Shown: positions 22,083 to 31,177 of the stretch, piece after piece
Layout of the letters: the number at the start of each line of letters is the position of its first letter
How positions within the stretch are numbered: the stretch's first letter is position 1
DNA from: Lachnospiraceae bacterium
Lineage (GTDB): Bacteria > Bacillota > Clostridia > Lachnospirales > Lachnospiraceae
Length of the DNA stretch: 42,003 bases
Direction: 5' to 3'
Assembly (NCBI GenBank): GCA_016284175.1
Contig: JAEEOJ010000056.1
Coordinates: 1 to 42,003, forward strand
Made by a program: the position numbers and the translations under genes
Notes under the pieces: model-generated
Seen by the model: the letters and a program-made list of their open reading frames with translations, nothing else
What the model was told of the DNA's origin: nothing
Databases searched by the model: none

Positions 22083-23435
22083 ATGAAAAGTAAAAACGAA
22101 ATGGATATGTGTTCCGGATCCATATTCGGCAAAATGCTTATATTTACTATTCCGCTGATGCTTTCAAGCATGCTTCAGCTTCTTTTTAATGCGGCCGACA
22201 TCGTTGTTGTAGGAAACTTTGCAGGTGACAATTCACTCGGCGCCGTAGGTTCAACCGGCTCGCTTATTAATCTTTTAACAAACCTTTTTATTGGTCTTTC
22301 CGTAGGTGTAAACGTTCTGGTTGCAAGATATTACGGCTCGGGACAGAAAGACAATCTGCATGATACGGTACAGACTGCCGTTACATTAAGCTGCGTGCTC
22401 GGAGTAGTTGTAGCTGTATTCGGATTTTTCTGTACTCCGATTTTCTTAAAATGGATGAAACTTGAAGGAGAAATCCTCTCTCTCGCAAGCGTTTACCTTC
22501 GTATCTATTTCCTCGGAATGCCCGCAGTTATGGTTTATAACTTCGGAAGTGCCGTACTTCGTGCAGTCGGCGATACCAGAAGGCCTCTTCTTTTTATGAT
22601 CCTTTCCGGTATCGTGAACGTCGGATTAAACCTGCTTTTCGTAATCGTATTCGACATGAATGTTGCAGGCGTTGCGATAGCAACTGTGATTTCTCAGACT
22701 ATCTCCGCACTGCTTGTAATACTCTGTCTTATCCTTGAAAAAGGTAATATTCATTTTGACGTAAGGCATCTTTACATAGATAAGAATATCCTCGTAAAAA
22801 TCCTAAGTATCGGCCTTCCCGCAGGCTTTCAGGGTACACTTTTTTCGCTTTCGAATGTTTTCATCCAGTCGAGTGTTAACTCTTTCGGAGACATCACTAT
22901 CACAGGTAATTCGTCAGCGATCAACATTGAAGGCTTTGTCTATGTTGCAATGAACGCCTTCCATCAGGCAGTCATTTCTTTCGTAAGCCAGAATATCGGC
23001 GCAGGAAAGAAAGAGAGAATCAACAAAATCACGGTTATCGGACTTCTCCTGGTAAGTTCAACCGGCCTTTTACTCGGCTCTCTTGCCAACTACTTCGGAC
23101 GTGAGCTTTTATCCATTTATTCGAGAAATCCCGCGATTATCGAAGCCGGACTTATAAGAATCCGTATTATCTGTTCCATTTATTTTCTTTGCGGAATTAT
23201 GGACGTAATTGTAGGCGCCTTAAGAGGCCTTGGCTATTCAACAATGCCTGCGATAGTATCTTTACTGGGTGCCTGCGTTTTCAGACTTATATGGCTCGCT
23301 ACAGTCTTTCAGTTTGATCAGTGGCATACAGTTCAAACTATTTATTATTCATATCCGATATCTTGGATTTTAACGTTCTCGGTACATGTGGTGTGTTACA
23401 TCATAGTTAAGAGAAAATACGACAGAGAGCATTAA
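22083..23435 (+). CDS. MATE family multidrug/Na+ or H+ antiporter
   Basis: Export carrier of 450 residues with 12 predicted helices in two halves, the usual MATE (NorM/DinF) arrangement. Family marks include FTIPLMLSSMLQLLFNAADI at helix 1, VGNFAGDNSLGAVGSTGSLI, VGVNVLVARYYGSGQ and LRAVGDTRRPLLFMILS. RBS AAAGGAGG precedes ATG, and a promoter is found upstream. Probable role is efflux of toxic organic cations or metabolites; the substrate is unknown. It ends in a strong bidirectional hairpin. The divergent HTH/Cys protein could be its regulator. Confidence 0.93.
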   Translation: MKSKNEMDMCSGSIFGKMLIFTIPLMLSSMLQLLFNAADIVVVGNFAGDNSLGAVGSTGSLINLLTNLFIGLSVGVNVLVARYYGSGQKDNLHDTVQTAVTLSCVLGVVVAVFGFFCTPIFLKWMKLEGEILSLASVYLRIYFLGMPAVMVYNFGSAVLRAVGDTRRPLLFMILSGIVNVGLNLLFVIVFDMNVAGVAIATVISQTISALLVILCLILEKGNIHFDVRHLYIDKNILVKILSIGLPAGFQGTLFSLSNVFIQSSVNSFGDITITGNSSAINIEGFVYVAMNAFHQAVISFVSQNIGAGKKERINKITVIGLLLVSSTGLLLGSLANYFGRELLSIYSRNPAIIEAGLIRIRIICSIYFLCGIMDVIVGALRGLGYSTMPAIVSLLGACVFRLIWLATVFQFDQWHTVQTIYYSYPISWILTFSVHVVCYIIVKRKYDREH

Positions 23436-23505: not shown

Positions 23506-24390
23506 TTAACCTTTTACTGAACCGAGAGCAACACCGGCTACGATGTACTTTGATAAGAAGATGTAAACGATAATCAAAGGTAAAATCGTAAGTGTAAGAC
23601 CTGCGTAAATTGAGCCGTACTCTGTCTTGTAGATATCAGCTCTAAGCAAACTTACCATCATGGGCATTGTATACTTCTTGGTACTGTTGATAAGAACCAT
23701 AGGAGTGAAGAGGTTGTTCCAGCTACCTACGAAAGCGAAAATAGCCTGTGTAGCAATAGCGGGTTTCATGATGGGAAGCACAATCTTGTTAAAGATGTAA
23801 AACTCTCTTGCACCATCGATACGCGCCGAGTGAACAATTTCAATCGGTAGTGCCGGATGCAGGTACTGCTTCATGAAGAATACCATTGAAGGTGCTGCGA
23901 TAGCCGGAATGATAAGCATTAAGAGGTTATCGGTAAGATGAAGCTTGTAGCACATCTGAAGGAAACCAATCAATGTCAGCTGTCCGGGCAGCATCATGAT
24001 TGCCATAATGAATGAGAAGAATGCATTTCTCAATTTCCATTCATATACAACCTGTGCATATGCTGTAAGTGATGAGAAGTATACAGCAAGGATTGTTGAA
24101 CCACCTGCACAGATGAAAGAGTTCAGGAAACCTTTTAAAGGTTTGAACATATTCTTCGATGAAAGAATCTTAATATTGTCGAACAAATGTGTCGAAGGAA
24201 GGAATGAAATCGCTGTCGACTGAATCTGAGGAGTTGATCTGGTAGCGTTAACGAACATCAACCAGAAAGGAAGTATACTTAAAATTGAAAGTGAAATACT
24301 TACTACGTAAATAATAATTTTCTGTACTACACCGCCTTTGCCTTTTTCTCTTCCTTCTACAGTTAATTGTAAATTAGAATTATTAGACAT
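23506..24390 (-). CDS. carbohydrate ABC importer permease (MalG/CUT1 type)
   Basis: Inner-membrane permease of 294 residues with six predicted helices. The EAA-type loop that docks on the ATPase reads HSARIDGAREFYIFNKIVLP. It is the second permease of a CUT1 importer and follows the first by 17 bp with RBS AAAGGAGGAG. The operon order is binding protein, permease 1, permease 2, with no ATPase gene; CUT1 importers of Firmicutes usually share a common MsmX-like ATPase encoded elsewhere. Substrate probably xylo- or other plant oligosaccharide given the flanking GH3/GH43/GH39 genes (inference). Confidence 0.93.
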   Translation of the reverse strand: MSNNSNLQLTVEGREKGKGGVVQKIIIYVVSISLSILSILPFWLMFVNATRSTPQIQSTAISFLPSTHLFDNIKILSSKNMFKPLKGFLNSFICAGGSTILAVYFSSLTAYAQVVYEWKLRNAFFSFIMAIMMLPGQLTLIGFLQMCYKLHLTDNLLMLIIPAIAAPSMVFFMKQYLHPALPIEIVHSARIDGAREFYIFNKIVLPIMKPAIATQAIFAFVGSWNNLFTPMVLINSTKKYTMPMMVSLLRADIYKTEYGSIYAGLTLTILPLIIVYIFLSKYIVAGVALGSVKG

Positions 24391-24407: not shown

Positions 24408-25385
24408 CTACATTTTACTCATTTTCAATTTTCTCTTGTATTCTTTTTCCTGTTTTCTTACGAGACGTCTGAGTTCAACCTCATCCTTATCTCTCAACAG
24501 ATAGAATACGATACATGACAGGAATACGATAATGAAGAACATGATCATACTCGCTGCAGAAGCTTCGCCGTAGAGATAACCACCCTGGAAAGCTTTGTTG
24601 TAAATATATAATGAAGTGGTAAGTGTTGCGTTGTTAGGTCCACCGTTTAAGAACAGTTTAGGAATATCGAACATATTCAAACCACCGATAAGTGATGTAA
24701 CCAATGTGAACAGCAACATTGTCTTGATACTGGGAATTGTTACTCTGAAGAATGTCTGCCACTGGTTTGCACCGTCAACTTCGGCAGCTTCAAACAATTC
24801 AGGTGAAATACCAAGGACACCGGATATAAGAACGATAGCTGTATAGCCATACCACATCCATGTCTGAATAAAGATAACGAATCCTTTTGCGACATTAGCA
24901 ATTCGTTGCATATCAACAGGTTGCTTAATTATCTTTAACATCAAAAGTAAATCGTTAAGAACTCCCTTAGGATACAGTGACAACTGGAAGAACAACATAG
25001 CTACGGTTGCCTGTGTAATAATGTTGGGGAGATAGAATAATACTTTGAAAATACCCTGAGCCTTAATTGTGGATCTTCTGTTTGTAAACCAAGCAGCGAT
25101 CAACAAAGCAAGGAGAATCTGAGGAACGAAGTTTAAGCCCCAGATAATAAGGGTATTACCGAACGCAATTTTGAATGATTTGTTTTTAAGAACGGTGATA
25201 AAGTTCTTAAAAGGTTCGCTCCACATGATATTAAAATCAGTGTTGCCGGCACCCTTAAGGTCGGTAAAACCTAAAAGGAGTGTATAAAGAATAGGGTATA
25301 ACTGAAAAACTAACCAGGCAAGAACAAAGGGAATACTGAATATGTAGCCGAATCTTGCATAATCGTAACTCTTTTTCCTTTTCAT
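24408..25385 (-). CDS. carbohydrate ABC importer permease (MalF/CUT1 type)
   Basis: Inner-membrane permease of 325 residues with about six helices. The EAA loop reads FEAAEVDGANQWQTFFRVTIP with the conserved Glu-Ala-Ala/Asp-Gly pattern. It pairs with the downstream MalG-type gene. RBS GAGGAGG is 8 nt before ATG. It lies 164 bp after the binding-protein gene, a gap that contains a strong hairpin without a full T tract (25481-25515), expected to lower permease relative to binding-protein expression. The highly charged C-terminus (about 300-325) is cytoplasmic. Confidence 0.93.
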   Translation of the reverse strand: MKRKKSYDYARFGYIFSIPFVLAWLVFQLYPILYTLLLGFTDLKGAGNTDFNIMWSEPFKNFITVLKNKSFKIAFGNTLIIWGLNFVPQILLALLIAAWFTNRRSTIKAQGIFKVLFYLPNIITQATVAMLFFQLSLYPKGVLNDLLLMLKIIKQPVDMQRIANVAKGFVIFIQTWMWYGYTAIVLISGVLGISPELFEAAEVDGANQWQTFFRVTIPSIKTMLLFTLVTSLIGGLNMFDIPKLFLNGGPNNATLTTSLYIYNKAFQGGYLYGEASAASMIMFFIIVFLSCIVFYLLRDKDEVELRRLVRKQEKEYKRKLKMSKM

Positions 25386-25549: not shown

Positions 25550-27034
25550 TTAGTCGATAGCAATACCTAACTGCTCGTTAACGTCAGTCTTGAATGCTTC
25601 GATAGCTTCATCCTTAGAAAGGTTGCCAGCTGTGTATTCACGAACCTTATCACGGAAGATGTTGTTGATCTTCTCATCGTACTGAGTGAGGTTCTTACCA
25701 TTTGCAAAAGCGTTAGCGGGAACGAATACATCAAACATGTTCTGACCTGCTAAGAAATCAGGAGTACATTTTGACTTAGCCATAACTGTACCGGAAGCAA
25801 CGCAGTCACCAGCGGAGCCTAAACCTTCAGGCTTATTACCACAGTTATCAAGCATTGTGTAGTTGATTAACCAAGCGGGACCGAAGAAACCAAGAACCTG
25901 CTTCTCGCCCTGACCCTTCATATCTGCGAACCAAGCATCGCCCCAGTCCTGAGTATCATTGTGATATCCGTTGTCTTTGAGCTTCTTGGAGATATCGAAG
26001 AACTCTTCTCTCTTAGGATCGATGTAAAGCTTGTCGTCTACGATCCAACCCTTGTCAGAGCTGTTCTCGATAGCGTGCCACATATCACCATCACCTGAGC
26101 AGATGCCGTAGCCATGAGCCTTAAGTTCTTCAGCTGCAGCCCAGTATGTATCCCATGAACCTGTGCCACCACCGATTTTCTCTTTAACTACTGCGGGATC
26201 ATCTGAACCCCAAACGTCCTTAGCGATTGAACGTCTGTAAATAAATACACCACCTGTAGCCTGATAGCCTAAACCAACTAACTTGCCATCAGAAGGTCTT
26301 GTTCCGATATCAATTGTGTAACCAGCGATGTCAGCTGCCTTTGTAGCTGCTGCTGCATCGATGCCGAGTGCTTCGTAAGGAGCTGCGAACTTAGCCATGT
26401 CGCCCTGTGTATACTTAAGAACGAAAGCTGACTCACAACCATAAACGTCAACCTGACCATTCATAAGAGCCTGGTCAAGAGCATCCTGGTATCCATCACC
26501 TGTACCCTTGATTGTAACGTGTACGTTGTAACCAAAGTCAGGATGATCCTGTACGAACTGATAAACCATCTTAGGAATTTCGTTTGTGAAGTTCCAAAGT
26601 TCGATTGTTCCCTTGTCACCACCGTTAGCGGGTTTGATGTTCTCAAGGTCAACATCGTCAGATACGTTGAAAGTACCGTTAGCCCAAGCGTACTGAAGGC
26701 CTGATTCAGAATCATCAAGTGTGATGTATTCCATGATAGCCTTAACGCCTTCAGCCTTACCAGCATCAACAGCTGCCTGGCTGGAAACTACCCATGTACC
26801 ACCCCAGAAGAAACCGATGGGAGACTCTGTGATAGCCCAATCACCGTATGTACCGTCTGTAGGTGCAGCGATAGGCTCAAATGTCTGAGCGGGTTCTGTT
26901 GTAGTTGTCTGAGCGGGCTCAGTTGTTCCGGGATCTGTAGTTGTTGTTGTAGTAGTTGTTGTGCTAGGATCACAAGCAACCATTGTTGCAGCAACCATGC
27001 ATGTACTTAATGCACAAGCCATAAATTTTTTCAT
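25550..27034 (-). CDS. sugar-binding lipoprotein of CUT1 ABC importer with a displaced internal segment
   Basis: Extracellular solute-binding protein (MalE-like, family 1), 494 residues. Lipobox TMVAC with Cys21, then a Thr/Pro/Glu-rich linker (22-58, with nine consecutive Thr). The usual first strand KGTIELWNFTNEIP only begins at residue 141. Before it lies a block, about 62-139 (GDWAITESPIGFFWGGTWVV, then AIMEYITLDDSESGLQ), that corresponds to the MalE region after the GPWAW strand, normally C-terminal. At its expected site (residues 409-411) the chain instead runs SAGD directly into CVASGTVMAK. The order is therefore permuted, though the reading frame is intact. RBS AAGGAGG precedes ATG. 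It heads the operon with the two permeases; palindrome 27080-27116 lies upstream. Confidence 0.9.
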   Translation of the reverse strand: MKKFMACALSTCMVAATMVACDPSTTTTTTTTTDPGTTEPAQTTTTEPAQTFEPIAAPTDGTYGDWAITESPIGFFWGGTWVVSSQAAVDAGKAEGVKAIMEYITLDDSESGLQYAWANGTFNVSDDVDLENIKPANGGDKGTIELWNFTNEIPKMVYQFVQDHPDFGYNVHVTIKGTGDGYQDALDQALMNGQVDVYGCESAFVLKYTQGDMAKFAAPYEALGIDAAAATKAADIAGYTIDIGTRPSDGKLVGLGYQATGGVFIYRRSIAKDVWGSDDPAVVKEKIGGGTGSWDTYWAAAEELKAHGYGICSGDGDMWHAIENSSDKGWIVDDKLYIDPKREEFFDISKKLKDNGYHNDTQDWGDAWFADMKGQGEKQVLGFFGPAWLINYTMLDNCGNKPEGLGSAGDCVASGTVMAKSKCTPDFLAGQNMFDVFVPANAFANGKNLTQYDEKINNIFRDKVREYTAGNLSKDEAIEAFKTDVNEQLGIAID

Positions 27035-27210: not shown

Positions 27211-27370
27211 ATATGCATTTCATTTTGCATATTTTTTGCACTAAATAAGATAAAATTCGCACAAAAGCATGTTTTGTCCTCTAAATTATGATATACTCGT
27301 ACGTAATTTGAGTCGGAAAAAAACAGTTTTCTTACTATATAAAAATAAATATTCTTTTAGGAGTATATAT

Positions 27371-28081
27371 ATGAGAAATATATTTTCACCGGACAGTTTA
27401 TTAATTAAGGCGCTCACTCTTTTATGCGACCTTATGTATCTAAATATCCTTTTCCTTATATGCAGCATTCCGATTTTTACGATCGGCGCCTCAGCCACTG
27501 CTCTTTATGCCGTTCTTTTTAAGAGAATCCGCGGCAAAGACGTTAAAATAGGTAAAACTTACTTTGCGGAATTCAAATCCAATTTCAAGCAGGCAACACT
27601 TTTCTGGATTCCTTTCTTTTTAATAGTAGCTTTCCTTGCAGCCGATGTTTATATTTCGCATAACATTCTGCCGGAGGCTTACAGATTTTTACAGTATCCG
27701 GTTTCTATCGCGCTTTTCATTATTTTATGGGTGACAGTGCTTGTTTTCCCGCAGATGGCGCTTTTTAACTCGCCCACACGCCAGATAATCAAAAACTCTG
27801 CCATTCTGAGCTTTGTTAACTTTCCTGTTATAGGAATGGTGTTCGTTATCCACATCTTCTTATTCTTAATAGCTGACTTATCCGCCAAAGCCGAAGCTAT
27901 AGTCGTTTCAGTATTATTATTCTTCGGCATTGCAGCTTTGGCATGGTTCTTCTGCATCTTTTACAGAAGAATATTCATTAAAGTCATGGGCAGCGAATTT
28001 CCCGAAGAAAAAGAATCCGCCGAGAATGGTGAACTTCTCGACGGAGAAAAAGATCCTGATGACGATCTTCCCATTATTTAA
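27371..28081 (+). CDS. DUF624 (YesL-type) membrane protein
   Basis: The 236-residue protein has about five hydrophobic helices and begins MRNIFSPDSLLIKALTLLCD, the DUF624 N-terminus; SIPIFTIGASATALYAVLFK is also typical. The tail (about 205-236) is strongly acidic. ATG at 27371 is chosen because AGGAG is 8 nt upstream; the in-frame extension to 27269 lacks a ribosome binding site and overlaps the promoter region. YesL-type proteins are encoded with carbohydrate ABC importers in Firmicutes, and this one is divergent from the importer operon. Biochemical role is unknown. It is convergent with the gene at 28101, 19 bp apart. Confidence 0.85.
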   Translation: MRNIFSPDSLLIKALTLLCDLMYLNILFLICSIPIFTIGASATALYAVLFKRIRGKDVKIGKTYFAEFKSNFKQATLFWIPFFLIVAFLAADVYISHNILPEAYRFLQYPVSIALFIILWVTVLVFPQMALFNSPTRQIIKNSAILSFVNFPVIGMVFVIHIFLFLIADLSAKAEAIVVSVLLFFGIAALAWFFCIFYRRIFIKVMGSEFPEEKESAENGELLDGEKDPDDDLPII

Positions 28082-28100: not shown

Positions 28101-28895
28101 TTATTCACTCTCAGAAAGAAGCCACTCCATAAAACGTCTGGCTTCTTCTTTATGTTTGGAAGTATCAAAGGAAACCGCAAGGGGTTCTGCATCTTCGGGA
28201 TATACATCTTTTACGACCTTGGCATCAATATAGAATGCTACGGGAATCTTTTCTCCCGATGAATCTCTGGCGTAATAAACCTTGTCTTCATGGTCTTTTA
28301 AGAAATCTTCATCGAATATTTCCCTCAAATCCAGTGTGGAATCCGTCACGGAATAATCGTTTACAACCCAGGACTCCGTAAGCGCGATATCAACTCTGCC
28401 CGAAATAACGCTGGCATTGAATTTCTGCATTGAAACATTATCTGCCTGAGTGAAGTTTTCCGCTCCCGTTGAGGTATCGGGATAACGAATATCATACACT
28501 ATTCTTATATCATCGCCCGTAATGTTTTCGCCGGTATACGCGATAAAATCATTTTCTACGGCGTACATCAGGTCAGGAATTTCATACTGAGCATTTGTAA
28601 TGGTTAATTCGAGTGCTCTTTCCCTGCTTTCGTTTAAATAAGAAGTAATCATAATTACCGTAATTACAATAATTATTGCGGGAATGATTACAAACCATTT
28701 GTAGTAATCCAAAAAGAAGCCTATCTTCCTTTTAAAAATGCCCCAGGCCGAATCATCTATTTCTTCCTCGACTTCTTCTTCCTCTTCTTTGTCAAGGAAA
28801 CGCTCTTCTTTTGCCAGAAGAAGTTTTTCCGCATCGGTCAGGCCTTCGAATTCTTCGGCCTTCTCTTCTTCTGTTTTAATGTTTTCGTCACTCAT
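28101..28895 (-). CDS. single-span membrane protein with acidic cytoplasmic N-terminus, unknown function
   Basis: Not recognised. The 264-residue protein has a very acidic N-terminal region (about 1-50, with a five-Glu run at about 37-41), one transmembrane helix (about 67-86, VIIPAIIIVITVIMITSYL) and an extracytoplasmic domain (about 90-264) with GRVDIALTESWVV and a C-terminal FMEWLLSESE. The end pattern (DTSKHKEEARRFMEWL) is reminiscent of solute-binding proteins, but similarity is too weak to call. It starts 14 bp after the GH3 stop on the same strand with a poor ribosome binding site (AGAAAGAAG), so it is probably translationally dependent on GH3. Confidence 0.7.
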   Translation of the reverse strand: MSDENIKTEEEKAEEFEGLTDAEKLLLAKEERFLDKEEEEEVEEEIDDSAWGIFKRKIGFFLDYYKWFVIIPAIIIVITVIMITSYLNESRERALELTITNAQYEIPDLMYAVENDFIAYTGENITGDDIRIVYDIRYPDTSTGAENFTQADNVSMQKFNASVISGRVDIALTESWVVNDYSVTDSTLDLREIFDEDFLKDHEDKVYYARDSSGEKIPVAFYIDAKVVKDVYPEDAEPLAVSFDTSKHKEEARRFMEWLLSESE

Positions 28896-28909: not shown

Positions 28910-31030
28910 CTATTTAAGATTAAGCACTGCTGCCTTAGTACCCGTAAGTTCTTCGGTTCGCTTGTCAGCTCCGTTAAAGCCTACATAGATATCGGCTGCA
29001 TTTCCGGTAACGCTTCGTATGCCTTCGTCGTCAACGGTGGTAAATGCGTATGCAGGAACGGTGATTTCAAATTCCTTTTCTTCGTTTGCGCCAAATTTTA
29101 CTCTCATAAAAGCAGCAAGTTTGGTATTTAAAACCTCATCCTTTGTGCCGTTAACATGCACATAAACCTGAAGTACGTCTTCTGTTTCGATTGCGCTTGC
29201 GTTTACGGCCTTTACGTTAATTGTAATACCTTCCTTTGAAGCCGCATCAAAACTCTTTGCATCCTTAAAAGATGCATCCGTAACTTTGACATCTGCATAA
29301 GAAAGTCCGTATCCGAAAGGATAAAGCGGTGCTTTTTCAATATATCTGTAGGTTCTGCCCTTCATCGAATAATCTTCGAAATCAGGCATGTCCTTAAGAT
29401 CTTCGTCTCTGTAGAAGGTTAAGGGAAGTTTGCCCGAAGGTGAATATTCACCGAAGAGAAGTTCTGCAACTTCCTTACCGCCTCTTGCGCCGGGATACCA
29501 CGCCTGTACGATTGCGTTGGCATTTGCATCCGCAAGTGAATAGTCTAAGGCACTTCCCGCCATTGTTACAACAATGAACGGAACCTTCATCTCAATAATT
29601 GTTTCGAGAAGTTTAAGCTGTGAAGGCGGGAACTTTAAGTCATTCTTGTCGCCCGAGCTGTATGCGTTACCTGTATCTCCCTCTTCTCCTTCGAGTGTTT
29701 CGTCAAGGCCGAGGCAGAGTACTACAACATCAGAATTTGCCGCAACAGCTTTTGCTTCCGAAAGTCTGCCGTATTCCCTGCCTAAGGCCTCGGTCTTGGG
29801 TGCGAAGAGATGGCAGCCTTCCGAGAAGTATACTCTCACATCGTCGCCCACATAATCCTGAATACCTTCAAGAACTGTAATATATCTCGAAGATGTTCCG
29901 TGATAGTTACCGATAAGGGACGCTCTGCTGTTTGCGTTAGGTCCGATAACGCCGATCTTTTTAATTTTGTTTTTATCAAGCGGAAGTATTCCGTCGTTTT
30001 TAAGAAGAACAAGGCTCTCCTTTGTCGCACGTGAAGCAACTGCCAGGTGTTCCTTGCATTCGATTACGTCAAAAGGAATCGAATCAAACTCGGTCTTATC
30101 AAACATTCCGAGTAAATATCTTGTTGTGAAAAGACGAACGGCTGCTCTCTTTAAAAGCTCCTCATTGATAAGGCCTTCGTCGTAAGCATCCATTATTTTC
30201 TGGTATGTACATCCGCAGTTTAAATCACAGCCTTTTTCGAGTGCAAGTTTAACGCTCTCTTCAGGGCTTGATGTAACCTTGTGATTCTCATGGAAATCTC
30301 TTACAGCCCAGCAGTCCGAAACATAGTGGCCTTCAAAGCCCCATTTTCCGCGAAGGACTTCTTCCATAAGATATGAATGTGCGCAGCAGACTTCACCGTT
30401 GGTTCTGTTGTAAGCTCCCATTACGGATTCAACCTTGCCTTCGATTACACAGGCTTCAAACTGGGGAAGGTATGTTTCCCACATATCCTTCATGTTTGCA
30501 ACCGCATTAAAATGATGTCTTAAAGCTTCAGGTCCGGAATGTACCGCAAAATGCTTTGCGCATGCAGCAGTCTTTAAATACTCGCCGTCGCCCTGTAAGC
30601 CTTCGATAAAATTAACGCCGAGACGGCTGATAAGATAGGGGTCTTCGCCGTAAGTTTCATGTCCTCTGCCCCATCTCGGATCTCTGAAAAGATTTACGTT
30701 GGGAGACCACAATGTGATTCCCTTGTAAATATCCCTGTCACCGTCGGCAGACTGGAAATTGTATTTTGCTCTGGCTTCCGTTGAAATAACGTCGCCTGTT
30801 TCTTTTAGAAGCTCTTCGTCAAAGGTTGCACCGAGTCCGATTGCCTGAGGGAACATGGTTGCCACGCCCGCTCTGGCAACGCCGTGAAGGCCCTCATTCC
30901 ACCAGTTGTATTCGGGAATGCCGAGTCTGTCGATGGCAGGTGCATCATATCTTAACTGTGAAGCGATTTCCTCAACGGTCATTTTCTCCACAAGTTCGGT
31001 TGCTCTTTTTCTTGCTTCTTCTCTATTCAT
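28910..31030 (-). CDS. cytoplasmic GH3 family beta-glycosidase, probably beta-xylosidase
   Basis: Releases terminal sugars from imported oligosaccharides. The 706-residue protein has the GH3 N-terminal TIM barrel with the nucleophile Asp239 in GHYVSDCWAV, the substrate-binding KHFAVHSGPE, and GRGHETYGEDPYL, then the GH3 C-terminal sandwich (AFASRATKES-like VASRATKESLVLLKNDGILP) and a fibronectin type III-like end (from about 590). No signal peptide. The ATG at 31030 follows AAAGGAGAGGG; the in-frame start at 31114 is upstream of that site. KHFAVHSGPE with YNWWNEGLHG is commonly seen in xylosidase-type GH3 enzymes, and GH43/GH39 neighbours fit; glucosidase activity remains possible. Confidence 0.88.
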   Translation of the reverse strand: MNREEARKRATELVEKMTVEEIASQLRYDAPAIDRLGIPEYNWWNEGLHGVARAGVATMFPQAIGLGATFDEELLKETGDVISTEARAKYNFQSADGDRDIYKGITLWSPNVNLFRDPRWGRGHETYGEDPYLISRLGVNFIEGLQGDGEYLKTAACAKHFAVHSGPEALRHHFNAVANMKDMWETYLPQFEACVIEGKVESVMGAYNRTNGEVCCAHSYLMEEVLRGKWGFEGHYVSDCWAVRDFHENHKVTSSPEESVKLALEKGCDLNCGCTYQKIMDAYDEGLINEELLKRAAVRLFTTRYLLGMFDKTEFDSIPFDVIECKEHLAVASRATKESLVLLKNDGILPLDKNKIKKIGVIGPNANSRASLIGNYHGTSSRYITVLEGIQDYVGDDVRVYFSEGCHLFAPKTEALGREYGRLSEAKAVAANSDVVVLCLGLDETLEGEEGDTGNAYSSGDKNDLKFPPSQLKLLETIIEMKVPFIVVTMAGSALDYSLADANANAIVQAWYPGARGGKEVAELLFGEYSPSGKLPLTFYRDEDLKDMPDFEDYSMKGRTYRYIEKAPLYPFGYGLSYADVKVTDASFKDAKSFDAASKEGITINVKAVNASAIETEDVLQVYVHVNGTKDEVLNTKLAAFMRVKFGANEEKEFEITVPAYAFTTVDDEGIRSVTGNAADIYVGFNGADKRTEELTGTKAAVLNLK

Positions 31031-31177
31031 TAATCCCTCTCCTTTTGTACGTTTCCGTACATCAACATTTATAGTTTTTCTGCAACCCTCATAAAAAAAA
31101 ATTGCAATAATCATTTTACTATGTTTTTACTATTATAACAATCAAAACACGCATTTTTCACATTAATTTTCTGTTTT

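Follow-up and report, generated by a model that had tools for sequence, protein, structure and literature searches.

A natural segment swap in the substrate-binding lipoprotein of a predicted oligosaccharide importer from a genus of Lachnospiraceae

Naturally permuted sugar-binding proteins have been described before. The nearest natural case found is TpMglB-2 (Tp0684) of Treponema pallidum, proposed as 'Type Ic / Cluster Bc' and described as a circularly permuted type I/cluster B fold (PMC4990184). Non-cyclic permutations, or segment swaps, in which two segments are exchanged and the remainder stays in order, are also a known category, and in one reported kinase pair the swapped parts build the binding site (PMC2096629, PMC2213659). 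In the papers cited here, natural permutations beyond the circular type are reported mainly as structural look-alikes. A domain dislocation has been put forward to link type I and type II binding proteins (Fukami-Kobayashi 1999, as cited in PMC9815098). The present analysis concerns a gene in the 42,003-nt contig JAEEOJ010000056.1 of a Lachnospiraceae bacterium; this whole stretch is called the window, and the gene is L001 in the numbering of loci (L) used below, genomes being numbered with G. Its product is best explained, from its sequence and its place beside two BPD_transp_1 permeases, as the substrate-binding lipoprotein of an oligosaccharide ATP-binding cassette (ABC) importer, in which an internal block, X, precedes blocks A and C instead of standing between them.

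Pieces of the protein (X, residues 62-138; A, 139-412; C, 412-494) were used as BLASTP queries against the open reading frames (ORFs) of the fetched loci. The alignment blocks crossed against relatives with the order A-X-C, in agreement with the original prediction that a segment from the C-terminal third is now N-terminal. The extent of this segment, given there as about residues 62-139, was narrowed: the conserved moved block covers residues 62-121, and residues 122-140 form a linker that is not part of it. The gene and its parts are as follows:

25550..27034, minus strand: gene of the permuted solute-binding lipoprotein (494 aa), with its blocks in the order X-A-C (ORF list, BLASTP pieces)
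26852..27034, minus strand: residues 1-61, with signal peptide, Cys and a linker rich in Thr and Pro (lipobox by eye; predicted local distance difference test score, pLDDT, <50 for residues 1-47 of the model)
26672..26851, minus strand: moved block X, residues 62-121, containing FFWGGTW (BLASTP, model)
26615..26671, minus strand: linker from X to A, residues 122-140 (sequence comparison)
25808..26614, minus strand: block A, residues 141-409, from the canonical first strand through GPAWLINYT and the subsequent loop (BLASTP, model)
25553..25807, minus strand: block C, residues 410-494, the C-terminal part, fused directly to A (BLASTP, model)

The 19-residue linker between X and A was present in 10/10 permuted genes compared and in 0/5 canonical genus relatives. 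Two segments are exchanged, while the other order and the homology of each segment are kept; C is still C-terminal, and X alone is relocated in the BLASTP comparison. Judged from these alignments, the arrangement is a natural non-cyclic permutation (segment swap) and not a circular permutation. No Pfam or NCBIfam solute-binding protein model matched the window protein; since SBP_bac_8 was matched by only 1 of 25 canonical relatives, these curated models appear weak for the subfamily irrespective of order. We consider it highly probable that X-A-C represents a genus-level segment swap with a new 19-residue linker, which is inherited, preserves the usual docking and binding, and arose once by duplication and deletion.

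A single scan of genome contigs revealed 225 relatives, the best 80 of which were kept as loci. Besides the window protein, X-A-C was found in nine of these 80 (L003-L011; L009 shows X-A only, its contig ending after A); the remaining 71 (L012-L082) have A-X-C, as determined with the BLASTP pieces. The nine further loci come from separate records with 59-97% identity; L005 is from an isolate, Lachnospiraceae bacterium G41, and the record source of several others is buffalo or yak rumen or abomasum. The new order is inherited within a genus of gut bacteria, largely ruminant. At E 1e-20, 22 of 31 genus genomes gave a match: X-A-C was present in 11, including G016 (gene split over two contigs) and G020 (the fusion L092), a close A-X-C orthologue in 5, with G020 holding both orders, and distant relatives only in 7 (best match 33-40% identity). 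These genomes probably overlap those behind L003-L011, and not all are independent evidence. A profile of the X-A junction was spanned in the window's own genome only, in a sample of 397 family genomes, of which 30 gave a match, and in one of 391 class genomes, of which 18 did; both numbers of matches count the window's own genome, and neither sample is a census. Of 30 family loci fetched, 29 have A-X-C, and the sole X-A-C is the window's own. The possibility raised at the outset, that relatives with the same order would make this an established family, applies in half: there is a small genus-level group, and next to it canonical orthologues that occupy the same operon slot. Viral contigs gave no relative. 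In the window's own genome a second close copy is absent: at E 0.001 there was one further match, limited to residues 1-57. It lies at G000:C130:26471-26638 (L002), in another long ORF (600 aa open frame), which has only residues 1-57 (signal peptide and linker, 45% identity) in common with the binding protein. The fusion L092:550-2850 of G020 is a 767-aa protein with a divergent C-terminal X-A-C binding domain (48% identical), preceded by a zinc ribbon, a putative membrane helix (hydrophobic stretch by eye) and weak TPR matches; this full architecture was found in 1/31 genus genomes. By alignment, L092 appears to have lost W at two ligand positions, with FYTGG for FFWGG and GDSRF for GPAWL.

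The AlphaFold2 model of the permuted chain was confident (mean pLDDT 87.2, predicted template modelling score (pTM) 0.83), as was that of canonical L012 (85.0 and 0.81), which supports the earlier suggestion that the permuted chain might still fold. Canonical secondary-structure elements were kept with X transposed: strands 66-69 and 80-85 and helices 86-90, 94-106 and 113-118 of X have counterparts at equivalent block residues of L012 (317-320, 331-336, 337-341, 345-357 and 364-369, respectively). The model is two-lobed and superposes on solved MalE/CebE-type members, and the same two entries, 5ixp and 8bfy, were at the top of the lists for both models. From the canonical to the permuted model, the aligned residues fell from 378 to 328 for 5ixp and from 377 to 327 for 8bfy (50 fewer each), and the root-mean-square deviation changed from 2.6 to 2.8 and from 4.2 to 4.5 Å, respectively. 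A loss of 50 residues at a near-constant deviation is expected of a sequential aligner if X alone is out of order. According to the model, X probably docks at its usual place.

A sequence profile matched CebE (8bfy) as the sole solved chain, with E 6.7e-13; a single-sequence search of solved structures returned no relative. In CebE, domain 1 comprises residues 62-176 and 330-386, and domain 2 residues 177-329 and 387-454, with three hinges (PMC10714786). This numbering was transferred through the HMMER alignment, placing the hinge equivalents as follows:

26807..26812, minus strand: F75/F76, equivalent of CebE hinge 2 (G329-N330), inside X (inferred by alignment)
26249..26254, minus strand: G261/G262, equivalent of CebE hinge 1 (P176-M177) (inferred by alignment)
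25763..25768, minus strand: C423/T424, approximate equivalent of CebE hinge 3 (A386-K387) (inferred by alignment)

The permuted chain would thus run through the lobes in the order 2, 1, 2, 1, 2, with four crossings instead of three, and its lipid-anchored N-terminus would join lobe 2 instead of lobe 1. The original assignment of the block to the lobe of the N-terminus holds only in part: in the CebE alignment the first strand of X belongs to lobe 2, and hinge 2 has moved along with the block. Another idea, in which the moved X makes each lobe contiguous and leaves one crossing, was rejected, as X would start in lobe 2 with hinge 2 and C in lobe 1, giving the four crossings. Since CebE contacts W331, G333 and S334 correspond to W77, G79 and T80, X would bring part of the predicted binding site. 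The equivalents of W303 and E125 are W388 and E201, both in A, and that of D173 is Q258. The protein probably binds an oligosaccharide in the usual two-lobe way.

Both orders share one neighbourhood, composed of a GH3 gene, a 264-aa protein, DUF624, the binding protein, two permeases and MatE. All six neighbours are present in permuted L003-L006, L008, L010 and L011 and in canonical L012 and L059. In the window they are:

22083..23435, plus strand: MatE-family transporter, conserved neighbour (Pfam, locus comparison)
23506..24390, minus strand: permease, BPD_transp_1, which we take to be MalG-type (Pfam)
24408..25385, minus strand: permease, BPD_transp_1, presumably MalF-type by place and family (Pfam)
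27269..28081, plus strand: DUF624 protein, conserved neighbour (Pfam, locus comparison)
28101..28895, minus strand: 264-aa protein, no Pfam match, conserved neighbour (locus comparison)
28910..31114, minus strand: GH3 glycosidase, conserved neighbour (Pfam, locus comparison)

The two BPD_transp_1 proteins downstream are the conserved partner permeases of the binding protein; no ABC ATPase was found among the Pfam-scanned ORFs between 22083 and 31114. Compared with canonical L012, the blocks of permuted L001, L008 and L010 are 73-75% (X), 78-79% (A) and 82-86% (C) identical, and against L012 and L059 together the range is 73-86%. The 264-aa protein is fast evolving (44-64% identity, L012 versus five others); by eye, it has one hydrophobic stretch, and its C-terminal part resembles a single binding-protein lobe. 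Window positions 19134-41569 form a plant-polysaccharide gene region. The scanned ORFs there include glycoside hydrolases (GH) of families 16 (joined to a carbohydrate-binding domain), 3, 43 and 39, a pair of AraC regulators, an FKBP-type isomerase protein and another sugar ABC system, which has two Peripla_BP_4 proteins. Given these neighbours and the relationship to CebE, the likely ligands are oligosaccharides of the plant wall (cello-, mixed-linkage gluco- or xylo-). A self-complementary stretch (79 aligned bases, 96%) lies at L003:7632-7709, in the interval between the second permease gene and MatE. No Rfam family reached its gathering threshold in the window.

The ratio of nonsynonymous to synonymous substitution (dN/dS) was calculated pairwise for each block by NG86. 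In four permuted pairs of the main clade, X ranged over 0.086-0.108, A over 0.058-0.097 and C over 0.064-0.308; three canonical pairs gave 0.137-0.380 over the three blocks, with X and A at 0.20-0.38. The main clade is under purifying selection, with a constraint roughly equal to that on the canonical genes and weaker in L011. The FFWGGTW motif was intact in 9/9 permuted lipoproteins aligned.

The junctions carry short repeats, located in the window gene sequence as follows:

26841..26845, minus strand: GGTGA, N/X junction
26615..26620, minus strand: GGTGAC, X/A junction
25805..25810, minus strand: GGTGAC, A/C junction

The GGTGA positions named in the original prediction (26845-26841, 26620-26616 and 25810-25806, with GGTGAC exactly at the last two) are correct. 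The window gene contains six occurrences of GGTGA, and a 5-mer common to three random codon positions was obtained in 1.1% of draws within ±6 nt and in 0.17% within ±3 nt. GGTGA stands at all three junctions in 3/10 permuted genes (L001, L003 and L011) and at none in L092; the triple microhomology is suggestive only. In canonical L059, GGTGAC flanks X at both the A/X and X/C boundaries. In 10/10 permuted genes compared, GT(Y/F)GD precedes the tryptophan of X, the linker shows I-x-P-x-N-G-G-(D/S) ahead of A, and C-G-N-x-P-E follows A. GEGT(Y/F)GD is found before X in 4/5 canonical genus members compared (L012 differs), and the A/C loop of the permuted genes is as long as in these four. Since the moved copy carries the native GT(Y/F)GD and the A/C loop keeps its canonical length, the GT(Y/F)GD region must have been present twice, and duplication followed by deletion is the better reading for this reason. 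X, or the whole gene, would have been duplicated to the N-terminal side, and the old X would then have been deleted between two GGTGAC copies, in a single origin; a deletion between L059-like copies of GGTGAC would yield the A/C junction as seen.

The original prediction had explained the order by an in-frame move of a block of about 225 bp through microhomology. The sites are real, and one clean cut-and-paste of this kind would suit both the GGTGA that marks every junction of the window gene, L003 and L011 and the GGTGAC retained on either side of X in L059. Such an event would not give copied and deleted ends that overlap, as the native motif in the moved copy and the canonical loop length indicate, and it leaves the 19-residue linker unexplained; moreover, 7/10 permuted genes have no GGTGA at one or more junctions. 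A single cut-and-paste is therefore not the best fit, and we hold it to be rather doubtful. Two or more independent origins of the new order are unlikely. Trees separate L011 from the main clade and the neighbour trees need three changes, but junction residues and the linker ending shared by 10/10 permuted genes compared would not be expected from independent events, and one origin is argued from these shared residues. The following observations weigh against the single, inherited and functional swap proposed here. In the binding-protein tree (46 of 85 rows) the permuted rows are not one clade (two changes), and without L092 (33 rows) one permuted clade has p 0.06 in the approximately unbiased (AU) test; the two-permease tree (31 rows) requires three changes (AU p 0.051 for one clade), and the six-neighbour tree (15 rows) rejects one permuted clade (AU p 0.0008). 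No two-X intermediate was found, and a search at E 0.05 of the DNA next to the gene in 12 loci and the window showed no trace of another binding-protein copy. Constraint is weaker between L001 and L011 (dN/dS 0.287-0.455), block C reaches 0.31 within the main clade, and L011 and L092 lie on very long branches. The structural aligner is sequential and cannot show X in place, and 75 of the 85 rows of the predictor alignment were X, A and C fragments taken separately from 25 canonical relatives, an input that may bias the prediction towards the canonical fold; the docking of X and the lobe crossings rest on model confidence, DSSP agreement and CebE homology.

The likeliest reconciliation of the trees with a single origin is gene replacement between the two orders, which could explain the placement of L012 and its mosaic identities. 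The six-neighbour tree, which does not resolve the order of L059 and L011 (72/66), places canonical L012 within the permuted loci (99/97 and 97/95), but the binding-protein tree pairs it with L059 (98/94). The DNA of L012 is nearer to L059 in the first third of A (85 versus 73-77%) and in X (81 versus 73-76%), and nearer to the permuted genes upstream (85-92 versus 80%), in the last third of A (84-87 versus 81%) as well as over the second half of C (86-89 versus 78%). The mosaic is not clean, as the last third of A falls inside the tract that replacement would need, and a faster change of the start of A in the permuted genes could also cause the pattern. A decaying or non-functional relic is very improbable: the long branches of L011 and L092 and the two ligand-position W lost in L092 would agree with decay, while the frames are open, the operon slot and FFWGGTW (all nine aligned permuted lipoproteins) are conserved, dN/dS is about 0.1 for X and A in the four main-clade pairs, below X and A of the three canonical pairs, and the own genome holds no second close copy. 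The chance that the order is an artefact of misassembly or a chimeric contig is negligible. In G016, contigs C4 and C120 (L090 and L105) split the permuted gene, with a 115-base overlap ending just past the A/C junction, and the region thus gave an assembler trouble at least once; an assembly error, a worry of the original prediction, is nevertheless excluded because the nine other loci, isolate G41 included, carry X before A. The overlap of the two G016 contigs is possibly an assembly-graph branch.

It is an even call whether the two orders are interchangeable versions of one transporter part, the slot having alternated within this genus between A-X-C and X-A-C with the permeases retained, the anchor passing from lobe 1 to lobe 2 and a fourth crossing being added. 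If gene replacement took place, one permease pair has worked with both orders; if the orders are interchangeable, evolution has run a topology-swap experiment in a living importer. The natural pairs, 73-86% identical per block in the same slot, make it testable how chain order changes, at what cost, and whether the motion of a binding protein depends on its lobe-crossing topology. The locus also serves as a warning that a portion of proteins of this kind escapes sequential alignment and family models.

The window gene shows a natural change of chain order that is both rare and recent, and the unusual point is the presence of close unpermuted orthologues at the same locus. The original prediction considered such an internal-segment permutation of a solute-binding protein to be undescribed, and likewise no description was found in the openly licensed literature; subscription papers lie mostly outside it, which makes this weak evidence of absence. 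The canonical orthologues (L012, L059 and L068) resemble the window gene in their operon slot, and its predicted elements are the same as those of L012; they and CebE (8bfy) differ from it in having X between A and C and no X-A linker, so that the window protein departs from the canonical segment order of MalE/CebE-type proteins. Segments are rearranged between lobes within the same superfamily in the domain dislocation as well, which is a hypothesis on an ancient origin, whereas the present case is an observed modern rearrangement. Examples of segment swaps in the cited reports are structural pairs, whereas this one is visible in sequence and has syntenic unpermuted orthologues. Like the window protein, TpMglB-2 is a sugar-binding protein that is tethered, serves an ABC importer and has been permuted in nature, and its permutation also creates a fourth lobe crossing, as inferred here. 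It differs in that its permutation is circular and its permuted part poorly conserved. The window protein does not belong to Type Ic, its top structural matches being MalE/CebE-type proteins; an internal block of the MalE/CebE-type fold has moved, both ends of the chain have retained their origin, and there are close canonical orthologues.
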